64,000 nucleotides of DNA from Rhodanobacteraceae bacterium ZG21-1 (GTDB taxonomy: Bacteria; Pseudomonadota; Gammaproteobacteria; Xanthomonadales; Rhodanobacteraceae), in assembly GCA_021390615.1 (NCBI GenBank), contig JAJEJU010000025.1, positions 1,612,001 through 1,676,000 on the forward strand. The letters are read 5' to 3'. Positions 25,574 through 37,235 of the stretch are shown here, piece by piece (within the stretch, counting starts at the first letter, position 1; each line of letters starts with the position of its first letter). The position numbers and the translations under genes were made by a program. The notes under the pieces are model-generated. The model had not been told where the DNA came from. It did no database searches and was given only the letters and a program-made list of their open reading frames with translations.

Positions 25574-25698
25574 CGTGCCAGAAGGGCAGCCTGTGCCAGA
25601 AGGGCACCCTGTGCCAAAACAGGCACCTCATGCAAGAACGGGCACCTTGTGCCAGCACAGGCACTCTGCGCCAGAACGGGCACCTTGCGCCGGAAGCG
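25574..25698. repeat. Array of six to seven 18-19-bp imperfect repeats
   Basis: Head-to-tail units close to TGTGCCAGAACGGGCACC begin at 25574, 25592, 25610, 25628, 25647 and 25666, with a decayed seventh at 25685. Each unit is itself a small inverted repeat (GTGCC near one end, GGCAC near the other). There is no spacer, so it is not a CRISPR array. Confidence 0.85.
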
Positions 25699-34090: not shown

Positions 34091-35014
34091 TCAGCGCGCC
34101 GACGTACCCTGCCCCAGTAACTGCCCGTTGACCGTGGTGCCGTACAGCGAGTCCGGCGTGTCGTGATAGGCGGTGCGCGTGGCCGGAATCGAGCCGTTGA
34201 AGCGCGGGTCCTGCGGGCGTTCGTGCGCATCCATGAAATAGGCTACGTCCCAGGCGTCCTGGTCGCTCAGCGTGTCGCCTTTGCCCAGCGGCATATTGGC
34301 CTTGATGAAGCCGGCGGCGTTGCCGACCTGTTCCATACCGGCGCCCCAGTTGAACGACTGCGGCCCCCATAGCGGCGGGAACACGGTGCGCCCGGCCGCC
34401 TGCTGGCCCTGGCCGTCGCCGCCGTGGCATAGCGCGCAGTCGCGCTTGAACACCAGCTCGCCGCGCGCGTAGTCGGGCACGGACGCGGGCTTGGCCAGCC
34501 TGGGGTAGCCGCGGCCGGGCAAGGCGGTGCCGATCGGCGCGCCCTTCGACATCCAGTAGGCATAGCTTTCCAGCGCGACCAGCACCGGGTCGCCCAGCGG
34601 CGGCGCCTTGCCGTTCATGCTGTAGTTGAAGCAGCCCTGCAACCGCTCGGCGAAGCTGTTCACGCGATGATTCTTGCTGCGGTAGGCCGGGTACATCGGA
34701 TACGCGCCCCATAACGGCGCAGAGCGTGCCAGGCGGCCCGCGTCGAGATGGCAGTTCTCGCAGCTGAGCTGGTTGCCTACGTAGGCCTTGGCGTAGCGAC
34801 CCGGATCCAGAAAGATCTGCCGTCCCAGCGCCACCTGCTTGCCGAACTCGTCGGCAGGGATCGCCGTGTCGGGTGGCGGCACAAAGGCTGCAGCTGGCGG
34901 CGCGGCGGAGACTGCAGGCGCCGTCTTCGCTGCAGCCTGCGGCGCGGCACCGGGTTTGCCGCAGGCCGCCAGGCAGAGCACCGCCGACAGCAAAACGACG
35001 TGCCTGGGATTCAT
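34091..35014 (-). CDS. tsdA: Dihaem cytochrome c, TsdA-like thiosulfate dehydrogenase
   Basis: A 307-residue lipoprotein cytochrome. The lipobox LAAC gives Cys18, followed by an Ala/Pro linker. Haem sites are CENCH (85-89) and CALCH (193-197). Cys128 in GCFNYSMNG aligns in position and context with the cysteine that ligates the catalytic haem iron in TsdA, and Met241 or Lys238 may ligate the second. TsdA joins two thiosulfates to tetrathionate and feeds two electrons to a cytochrome c. Its start overlaps the stop of the c4-type cytochrome gene (ATGA), the TsdB-TsdA arrangement. Confidence 0.83.
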   Translation of the reverse strand: MNPRHVVLLSAVLCLAACGKPGAAPQAAAKTAPAVSAAPPAAAFVPPPDTAIPADEFGKQVALGRQIFLDPGRYAKAYVGNQLSCENCHLDAGRLARSAPLWGAYPMYPAYRSKNHRVNSFAERLQGCFNYSMNGKAPPLGDPVLVALESYAYWMSKGAPIGTALPGRGYPRLAKPASVPDYARGELVFKRDCALCHGGDGQGQQAAGRTVFPPLWGPQSFNWGAGMEQVGNAAGFIKANMPLGKGDTLSDQDAWDVAYFMDAHERPQDPRFNGSIPATRTAYHDTPDSLYGTTVNGQLLGQGTSAR

Positions 35015-35715
35015 GGCGCTGTCTCCTTGGCCGGCGTCGCCGGTTGCGCGGCGTACCAGGCGCCGAGTGCGGCGATGTCGGCCTCGTCGAGCTTGGCCGC
35101 CACGCGCTGCATCAGCTGCATGGGATCGTTGTGGCGTCGACCCTGTTGCCAGGCATGCAGCTGATTGGCCATATAGACGGCCGAATGCGCCGCCAGTGGC
35201 GGAAAGTGCTCACCCACGCCGATGCCGCCCAGCCCATGGCACTGCTCGCAGGCCGGCAGGCCCGCCGACCAGCGTCCGCGCGTGGCCAGCAGTTGCGCAC
35301 GCTGCGCAGCCTCGCCGGTCGGCGGCGCAGGCGCTACGGCGGACGGTGGCGGCAGCCGGCTGTAGTACGCCGCCATCGCGTCGCGCTCGGCCTCGCTCAA
35401 GGCGCTGGCCACCGGCCGCATGGTCGGATCGGCGCGCGAGCCGTCGGCAAAATCGTCCAGCTGCTTACGCAGATAGGCCTGCGGCAGGCCGGCCAGGCGC
35501 GGAAAACCGGCCGCCGACATGCCGCCACCATCAGCCGCGTGGCAAGCCATGCACGGCGCCACGCCATGCCCATTGCCTTGGTGCGCGATGGTGGCGCCAT
35601 CGGGCGGCGAATCCGCCCAGGCGACCGTCGCACGCGACAGGCCGAACAGCGCGATCAGGCAGGCGATAAATCGGGCCGCAGCGAGGCGATGGCGCTTGTC
35701 GGTGACGACGGCCAT
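35011..35715 (-). CDS. Dihaem cytochrome c4-like (TsdB-like electron acceptor)
   Basis: A 234-residue protein with a signal peptide (FIACLIALFGLSRATVAWA) and two CxxCH sites, CMACH at 55-59 and CEQCH at 156-160, each followed by a Met-containing segment. The two-domain layout (FPRLAGLPQAYLRKQLDDF and later FPPLAAHSAVYMANQL) is that of cytochrome c4. In TsdBA pairs this protein takes electrons from TsdA. The ATG at 35715 has a GAGGTG ribosome site. A 131-base gap of degenerate repeats separates it from the upstream binding-protein gene. Confidence 0.87.
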   Translation of the reverse strand: MAVVTDKRHRLAAARFIACLIALFGLSRATVAWADSPPDGATIAHQGNGHGVAPCMACHAADGGGMSAAGFPRLAGLPQAYLRKQLDDFADGSRADPTMRPVASALSEAERDAMAAYYSRLPPPSAVAPAPPTGEAAQRAQLLATRGRWSAGLPACEQCHGLGGIGVGEHFPPLAAHSAVYMANQLHAWQQGRRHNDPMQLMQRVAAKLDEADIAALGAWYAAQPATPAKETAP

Positions 35716-35846
35716 GACACCTCGTATATCCGCCTCGTGGATGCTCCTGCTCGAAACATCCATGTGGTGCACACGCTCACTTGCGACATGGGTGGCATCT
35801 GGCCATCCGTATGCAGCAGCCGTTCTCGCATTCGCAGACCCGCTGC

Positions 35847-37235
35847 TCACGGCGCCGATCCATCCATCGAGGGCGACCGTTCCTGTGCATCGGATACCGG
35901 CTTCGTGGACGCCTCGACTTGGGATGTCCGCGGCACTTGTCCATCCATGGACGGCGGCCGCTCTAACGCATCCAGCGTTCGCGGCACTTGTCCATCCATG
36001 GACGGCGGCCGCTCCAACGCATCCAGCGTTCGCGGCACTTGTCCATCCATGGACGGCGGCCGCTCCAACGCATCCAGCGTTCGCGGCACTTGTCCATCCA
36101 TGGACGGCGCCTGGAAGGCGTATTTGCGGTAGATGGCTTGTGCCTGCGGCGAGCGCATAAAGGCGAGGAAGTCGCGAGCGGCCTGTGCGTGCGGCGCGCC
36201 CTTCATGCGTGCGGCGGTATAGGTGGCCACGGCGTTCTGCGCCGCGGGGATCGCCACCGTCTCCACCGGGCGATGCAGGATCGCCTGCTGGAAATACGCC
36301 TCGGTGGCCCATACCGGCGCCGCGTCCGAACTGCCGTCGAGCACGCGCAGAGGCGACTGGCGGTGATGGATCTGGGTGAGGAAAGTGCTGCCGTCATGCA
36401 CCTTGTCCTGCATGATGCGCTGGTCCAGCGCCTCGCCGCCGGCCTTGCGGTAGCTGGCCTCGATCTGTTTTGCGACGCCTTCCCATTGCGGATTGGGCAT
36501 GCTCACGCGCACGTCGGCGCGACCGAGGTCGGCCAGCCCGCGAATGTGCTTGGGATTGCCCTTGGCCACCAGGATCGCCAGCGGGTTGCGCGCGTAGTCG
36601 TAGCTCTCGGCGATCCAGCCCTGCTGCTGGCGCTGTTCGATCTCGTTCTTGCCGGCAGTGAACACGTCCGGCTTCAGTTCGATCTTGAGGTTGCCCATCA
36701 CCAGCGAGCCGGTTTCGATCTGCCTGGCCAGGATGCCCGGCGGCAAAGTCTCGGCGTAGATGCGCGTGTATTGCGGATAGGCCCGGCGGAACGCGGCCAG
36801 CAAGTCGTGCACCACCATGAACTGGTTGCCGGCGAAGAACACCGTCAGCTGCGGATCGACGATGTCGCCGTGCAGGTCGGCGATCGCGTCCACCGGCGGC
36901 ACCGCGAAGGACACGCCGCCAGCCGGCGGCGGGTTCCACGGTGGCAGATAGTCCGGCTGCGCAGCCGCCCCTGCGGACTGCGGCGCGGATGTGCCCGGCA
37001 CTTGTCCATCGGTGGACGCCGACCGCTCTGATGCATCCTGCGCCAGCTTTATCGGTGCCCCTTCTTGGGGTGTCTGCTGTGTAGACACCCCCTCTTGGGG
37101 CGCCGGCTTTATCGGTGCCCCTTGTTGGGGCGTTTGCGATGCTTGTCCATCCATGGACGACGGCCGCTCTGTCGCAAACACGCTGCCGCATGCGACCACC
37201 GTCAACGCCAGCGACAGCGCGAGACGGCGGCTCAT
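35847..37235 (-). CDS. Periplasmic substrate-binding protein with SMDG repeat modules
   Basis: A 462-residue exported protein. After the signal (LALSLALTVVACGSVFA), residues ~22-85 contain two degenerate SMDGQ units and TPQ(Q/E)GAPIK words. The core (~100-375) is a type 2 periplasmic-binding fold of the ModA/SBP_bac_11 kind, with LTVFFAGNQFMVVHDLLAAF and ARNPLAILVAKGNP. From ~376 the protein is a tandem of the 17-residue unit SMDGQVPRTLDALERPP, three complete and then degenerate units, ending SPSMDGSAP. The repeats lie outside the folded core at both ends. The ligand is unknown; the operon with a DsrE-like protein and TsdBA suggests an oxidised or reduced sulfur anion. Start overlaps the DsrE-like stop. 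Confidence 0.82.
   Translation of the reverse strand: MSRRLALSLALTVVACGSVFATERPSSMDGQASQTPQQGAPIKPAPQEGVSTQQTPQEGAPIKLAQDASERSASTDGQVPGTSAPQSAGAAAQPDYLPPWNPPPAGGVSFAVPPVDAIADLHGDIVDPQLTVFFAGNQFMVVHDLLAAFRRAYPQYTRIYAETLPPGILARQIETGSLVMGNLKIELKPDVFTAGKNEIEQRQQQGWIAESYDYARNPLAILVAKGNPKHIRGLADLGRADVRVSMPNPQWEGVAKQIEASYRKAGGEALDQRIMQDKVHDGSTFLTQIHHRQSPLRVLDGSSDAAPVWATEAYFQQAILHRPVETVAIPAAQNAVATYTAARMKGAPHAQAARDFLAFMRSPQAQAIYRKYAFQAPSMDGQVPRTLDALERPPSMDGQVPRTLDALERPPSMDGQVPRTLDALERPPSMDGQVPRTSQVEASTKPVSDAQERSPSMDGSAP
35932..36109 (-). repeat. Tandem 51-bp repeat inside the binding-protein gene
   Basis: Three full 51-base units begin at 35932, 35983 and 36034 and a partial fourth at 36085-36109. 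They differ by a single C/T base. Each contains TCCATCCATGGA and GCGGCCGC. Because 51 is a multiple of three, each adds 17 residues without changing the frame. Confidence 0.97.
36997..37176 (-). repeat. Degenerate copies of the same repeat near the 5' end of the gene
   Basis: GGCACTTGTCCATCGGTGGA with a following CCGCTCTGATGCATCC at 36997 onward, and GCTTGTCCATCCATGGACGA at about 37141 onward, match the 51-base unit. Between them a CTTTATCGGTGCCCCTT word occurs twice, encoding the GAPIK repeats. Confidence 0.8.

Follow-up and report, generated by a model that had tools for sequence, protein, structure and literature searches.

The window, the whole 64,000-nt stretch of DNA that was analysed, covers positions 1612001-1676000 of its contig in a 5.5-Mb genome, which is the sole member of its genus among the genomes searched. 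The gene under study encodes a substrate-binding protein and is flanked by a DsrE-like gene and a cytochrome c gene. In window coordinates, used throughout, the two annotated genes are:

35847..37235, minus strand: substrate-binding protein gene (SBP_bac_11; sulfate/molybdate-type; Pfam PF13531, E 8.7e-44; core at about residues 120-375)
35011..35715, minus strand: cytochrome c gene, downstream (Pfam cytochrome c; spacing comparison)

The binding protein also has weak NCBIfam matches to CysP/sulfate/ModA models, and its nearest named orthologues are in Dyella and Rhodanobacter. We read the ends of about 40 proteobacterial orthologues; these have a signal peptide with the core directly after it, and end in ...YRKYGFQPPQP* or close to it. 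In the window protein, the signal peptide is followed by some 65 additional residues and the core by some 80, and neither tail is present in any of these ~40 orthologues. A comparison with orthologues had been preset as a test by an earlier interpretation made from the letters of the DNA (the sequence-only reading), and its outcome, that the tails are not shared at the same place, was in favour of that reading. A covariance model of the repeat described below (R1) likewise gave a convincing match at 0 of 43 orthologue loci of the binding-protein gene. AlphaFold, using an alignment of 23 sequences, returned a pLDDT of ~90 for residues ~120-375 and <50 almost throughout residues 1-119 and 381-459. 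Both tails are accordingly modelled outside the folded core, where the sequence-only reading had put the two repeat positions, and are predicted to be disordered.

Both ends of the gene carry copies of a 51-nt unit. In order, the unit consists of hairpin H1 (4 bp, loop ANGGAN), a spacer with AGUG at its end, and an outer stem, likewise of 4 bp, that bears hairpin H2 (loop AGGAY). Tandem Repeats Finder (TRF) reported a 51-bp unit in 3.5 copies at 35929-36109 with 99% matches, and the three full units differ by a single C/T. Units were placed using model R1 with filters off:

36060..36110, minus strand: full 51-nt unit 1 (H1 UCC-AUGGAU-GGA; H2 AACGC-UGGAU-GCGUU; R1 71.7 bits)
36009..36059, minus strand: full 51-nt unit 2 (R1 72.8 bits)
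35958..36008, minus strand: full 51-nt unit 3, one base different (R1 71.6 bits)
35928..35957, minus strand: partial unit with only H1 and the spacer (R1 35.7 bits, E 1.7e-7)
35820..35876, minus strand: decayed unit with the TGA stop of the gene at the unit's conserved CGA (R1 20.4 bits, E 3e-4; translation)
35773..35831, minus strand: decayed unit beyond the stop, in frame with the gene (RERLLHTDGQMPPMSQV; local alignment and peptide, modest support)
37112..37163, minus strand: unit near the gene's 5' end, with H1 preserved and the second half decayed (SSMDGQ; R1 21.6 bits, E 1.7e-4)
36965..37022, minus strand: other 5'-end unit, with the decayed H1 loop ACCGAU (STDGQ; R1 21.8 bits, E 1.5e-4)
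37025..37047, minus strand: lone H2 half-unit (GCAGGAUGC; R1 11.2 bits, E 0.027)
37040..37137, minus strand: 30-bp repeat in three copies (PQEGAPIK/PQEGVST; TRF)

Between them, the two methods confirm the array as first described, with three 51-bp units one C/T apart and partial and decayed units at both gene ends; the two decayed units that had been proposed near the 5' end are those that R1 places at 37112-37163 and 36965-37022. The motif TGTCCATCCATGGAC occurs 13 times in the window at ≤3 mismatches, against 1.3 expected, and 0 of 100 shuffles reached 13. As RNA, the array folds better than its shuffles (z -4.5). Every unit had been said to contain a GCGGCCGC site; this is correct for the three complete units, to which the site is confined, and incorrect for every other unit. 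The 30-bp PQEG repeats have a 63% ungapped match to 35894-35931, which by eye hints at kinship with the 51-nt unit, and resemble the array no more than shuffles do; at 37053-37105 they form hairpins of their own (CCCC-AAGAA-GGGG type; GGTGTCT-ACACAGC-AGACACC). Elsewhere in the window, at 25575-25695, there is a separate array of 6.5 copies of a ~19-bp imperfect palindrome (GTGCCAGAACGGGCACCCT), with no frame of clear coding composition.

The 3' array runs up to the end of the gene and appears to continue past it. Downstream of the stop and in frame, the peptide RERLLHTDGQMPPMSQV mirrors LERPPSMDGQVPRTSQV, and the DNA there is co-linear with the array (29 of 1000 shuffles were as good). From the binding-protein stop to the CxxCH haem motif of the cytochrome is 293 nt in the window; of 30 orthologues checked, most have 115-146 nt, two have 175 and 205 nt, and a few were not reliably readable. 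The array thus appears to have filled the old gene junction and pushed the cytochrome gene away. Together, peptide, co-linearity and spacing lend modest support to the claim that decayed units extend beyond the stop. Since the TGA aligns with the unit's conserved CGA, the stop itself is probably a mutated unit codon. In the orthologue of highest identity (87%; Dyella silvatica, L007 1007-2029), the last codons of the binding-protein gene are gone and the frame runs out of register into the cytochrome gene; this is either an assembly error or a deletion that hit precisely the junction at which the window has the array.

An exact-motif search found the unit nowhere else in its own genome. Single 12-mer matches at two other places (L090, L091) were rejected on their unrelated flanks. 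A search with the tail peptide, however, recovered a second locus at E 3.6e-5 and 54% identity: hrpA (DUF3418, E 8.9e-103) contains a diverged pair of 51-bp units in frame. The palindrome letters of this pair read ACCAAGGAGGGT where the window array has TCCATGGATGGA. A pattern built from both loci matched only these two in the genome, and had 0 control matches. Outside the binding-protein gene and its junction, then, this genome has the unit as the diverged hrpA pair and not in any letter-for-letter copy. Because there are only two loci, the case for mobility within this genome is weak.

Related units also occur beyond this genome. A three-row profile gave matches in 62 of 197 genomes of the family, and model R1 in 65 of the 197 with 1-19 matches each; across the whole order, at a cut-off of E ≤ 1e-4, R1 matched 84 of 398 genomes and 33 of 99 genera. 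These results bear on the notion that the array arose wholly locally, as a tandem repeat produced by slippage within the binding-protein gene and without relation to any other locus. That the exact unit occurs in its own genome only at this gene would fit such an origin, and slippage would explain the near-identical units. But the hrpA pair and the matches in 84 genomes imply a common ancestral unit, and slippage hardly yields two separate positions in one gene. We consider a local origin very improbable, and as the source of the unit slippage is refuted by the hrpA pair and the 84 genomes; it likely remains the mode of tandem growth.

At hrpA, occupied and empty sites can be compared directly. 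One locus (L174) is empty at site 1 (AFPAVLEIP-PQRYKLEY), and another (L163) has 17 more residues exactly at that point. At site 2, eight genomes are empty, with GDI(D/E)(S/A)xxDFVRAN, and two have a unit, for a net gain of 16 residues. Occupied sites are thus longer than empty ones by 51 or 48 nt, and arrays at site 1 grow by 51-nt steps (L154 has three units). In two genomes (G149, G018) the site-1 copy lies about four codons further upstream. The simplest reading is more than one insertion near one hot region, the alternative being shared ancestry followed by later change.

The sites were then classified by host gene, frame and strand. Of 98 loci, 69 passed an automatic test, a heuristic on codon-position GC, that asks whether an open coding frame encloses the unit on both sides, with both strands represented; inspection by eye added about a dozen genic loci, and the remainder look intergenic. 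Coding copies were favoured early in the sampling, because the alignment that seeded R1 came from a protein profile and its seed was a coding copy. Hosts include hrpA (three sites), uvrA, uvrD, engB, hmgA, prmA, dihydrolipoamide acyltransferase, ribF, a metX-like gene and a hutH-like lyase, as well as dnaE, a type I methylase, a GH31 gene and a merR gene (ten were recognised by Pfam once the unit was removed, the others by eye). The automatic count was 51 sense and 18 antisense; two of the loci called sense (L158, L171) seem, when inspected, to lie antisense to ribF. The unit occupies one codon position of prmA in both orientations (L201, L203, L204, L227, L233 and L245 versus L228), and likewise one of hmgA (L230 and L235 versus L232 and L225), a pattern suggestive of in-place inversion or of repeated insertion at a hot spot. 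Outside the order, a 51-nt unit 99% identical to the query unit lies antisense in the primase gene of an 11-kb plasmid of Lonsdalea populi (Enterobacterales; NZ_CP072857.1 3584-3639, L296 2501-2556). Viral contigs (searched with the exact pattern), phage records and E. coli genomes gave no match. Two further copies in the same order (L290 895-946 and L295 126-177, family f8) sit in like flanks that by eye resemble an IS91-type transposase gene.

The distribution also bears on an explanation at the protein level, in which the peptide SMDGQVPR.LDALER would be a module that is shuffled as a domain and selected because it serves secreted proteins as a linker or binding motif. The window gene, hrpA site 1 and engB do share one frame with a recognisable peptide. 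However, the unit is read in another frame in uvrA, hmgA, uvrD, the hutH-like lyase, the metX-like gene and hrpA site 2, and copies are antisense in ribF, prmA, a kynurenine-monooxygenase-like gene and the primase. There are also intergenic copies, conservation tracks base pairing, and the window peptide is predicted by AlphaFold to be disordered. We rejected a protein domain on the distribution of frames and strands, and give a selected module hardly any credence. Several frames, both orientations, intergenic copies and the plasmid primase of the Enterobacterales argue instead for a nucleic-acid element. With copies in unrelated genes, the unit is not confined to one gene family at the protein level, and the sequence-only reading was apt in seeing not a domain but a repeat at the nucleic-acid level that keeps the frame and can be likened in kind to the Rickettsia palindromic elements.

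What is conserved is a fold. It was first drawn by eye on 43 units, which were aligned without gaps, and RNAalifold returned the same structure. Among the 43 units, 8 of 12 pairs have changes on both sides, and 98.3% of cells pair compared with 85.9% in shuffles. The covariation score was 0.388, against 0.143+/-0.012 for shuffled alignments (0/500), and sliding the partners destroyed the covariation (slid controls ≤0.119). When the set was widened to 98 distinct units, Watson-Crick pairs filled 1144 of 1176 stem cells; the H1 loop has ANGGA in 94 units, and the H2 loop has GGA in 92. The H1 stems of this set include GCC/GGC, TCC/GGA, GGC/GCC, GAC/GTC, ACC/GGT and TAC/GTA; H2 is GCGC-AGGAY-GCGC, with GCAC/GTGC and other variants; and the outer stem swaps between CC/GG, TC/GA and CT/AG. 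The H2 of the window has a double change of its own (AACGC/GCGTT). The conserved object is therefore a fold with fixed loops and stems that change by compensation. The palindrome TCCATGGA, which had been taken for the hallmark of the unit, is not that object: its stem letters vary with compensation, whilst the ANGGAN and AGGAY loops and the spacer are kept.

Very probably, then, the repeat is a member of a family of structured elements, ~51 nt long and interspersed, that is found across the order and spreads at the level of DNA. During spread such elements would act as DNA, and would form RNA hairpins wherever they are transcribed. Spread may occur by copying of a hairpin-forming single strand, in a REP-like or replication-associated manner. 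The reading frame is kept where a site is occupied: one hrpA site has a net gain of 51 nt and the other of 48 nt, and tandem arrays step by 51 nt. Written as tandem dimers, 66 of the 98 units are free of stops in all six frames, compared with 20% of shuffled units; because the period is divisible by three and about two thirds of units lack stops, a copy can persist as a harmless flexible linker in any frame, and the tails would be close to neutral. In this genome, one lineage presumably inserted close to each end of the binding-protein gene. Tandem growth of the 3' copies by slippage or unequal exchange would have followed, recently in the case of the three near-identical units, and the array would have crossed the gene end towards the cytochrome gene. 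A change of CGA to TGA in one unit probably gave the present stop, leaving decayed units downstream. The occupancy of hrpA, engB, prmA and hmgA across several genera could partly reflect old vertical inheritance.

Several known repeat systems invite comparison. Rickettsia palindromic elements are palindromes that are inserted in frame in many unrelated genes and translated as an extra segment. The present family is like them in entering many unrelated genes in frame without destroying them; it differs, as far as a comparison by description goes, in belonging to another bacterial class, and in its several frames, both strands and tandem expansion. PARCEL elements, 25-residue amphipathic coding repeats that are thought to spread by transfer, are likewise tandem coding repeats with dyad symmetry in the DNA (PMC2996958), whereas here the units have 17 codons, are read in several frames and have a predicted disordered product. 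REPs are short hairpin DNA repeats that are mobilised by RAYT transposases and also occur, singly or grouped and some in frame, inside ORFs of uvrA, uvrD, DNA polymerase and RNA helicase (PMC3733652).

Could the family then be a classical REP mobilised by a RAYT (Y1/HUH) transposase? The hairpin, the grouping of repeats and the sites in uvrA, uvrD, DNA polymerase and RNA helicase genes are shared with REPs (PMC3733652). However, a REP is a single stem-loop of 20-40 bp, often in many copies and mainly intergenic, whereas here there is a two-part 51-nt fold, with a low copy number (1-19 per family genome) and 69 of 98 loci in open frames. REPs are defined by an unpaired terminal tag of four bases, GTAG or CGTC (PMC3733652), and none is conserved among the 98 units; it is the GGA loop that is conserved here, not the foot. 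A classical REP is therefore improbable, although by analogy the family resembles intragenic REP and RPE elements, and REP with RAYT would be the nearest precedent. We found no description of the hairpin family in the open-licence literature (most subscription journals were outside the search).

The conserved loops raise a further possibility, that the unit is a dispersed CsrA/RsmA binding module. Here, the ANGGA and CAGGAU(G) loops, ~24 nt apart, would bind RsmA dimers when transcribed, the arrays would serve as decoys or regulators of host mRNAs, and the loops would be kept for that reason. The loop and stem layout fits the published consensus sequences RUACARGGAUGU, CANGGAYG and AUGGAUG (PMC7705225), and mRNA-derived RsmA-binding RNAs with GGA motifs exist in Xanthomonas (RsmU, PMC7694677). 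Fixed loops on varying stems in the 98 units, and the excess of sense over antisense copies in the automatic call, point the same way. But about one third of distinct sites are antisense, the stem mismatches of the 98 units are G-U and A-C about equally often (14 versus 11 cells), giving no sign of strand-specific selection on the RNA, the first loop base of the window H2 is U, and Rfam reported nothing in the window. On balance we regard a binding module as unlikely, though by no means negligible. A little less likely again is the fuller proposal, drawn from the sequences, that an order-wide element with paired CsrA/RsmA-type hairpins enters coding sequence without breaking it, so that mRNAs such as those of hrpA, uvrA, engB and the window gene may become RNAs that bind or titrate RsmA. 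Like CsrB/RsmZ-type RNAs and RsmU (PMC7694677), the family has several GGA motifs, placed in hairpin loops here and in many CsrA-binding RNAs; unlike CsrB/RsmZ-type RNAs, it is an interspersed repeat mostly inside coding sequence, and in the window it has no Rfam match.

Intragenic palindromic repeats are already known; what is unusual here is the combination of compensating stems and fixed GGA loops with a majority of sampled copies in open coding frames. The host genes are conserved ones, and the unit is read in them in several frames and both orientations. The binding-protein gene puts near-identical units, decaying units and a probably unit-derived stop side by side, and so offers a view, within one gene, of how disordered tails or linkers may be born from DNA repeats. 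With occupied and empty hrpA sites present within one family, the insertion step is open to comparison between strains.

A motif search in relatives also brought up intergenic hairpin arrays in a genome of the same order and another family (G040), which were rejected as a different repeat. In two of these arrays the Rfam RsmV/RsmW models scored below cut-off (best E 1.1e-6). The hairpins of the whole set of arrays (L119, L124, L126, L128, L129 and L130) have GGA loops (GGCACAAGGATGTGCC, CGTCCATGGATGGACG).
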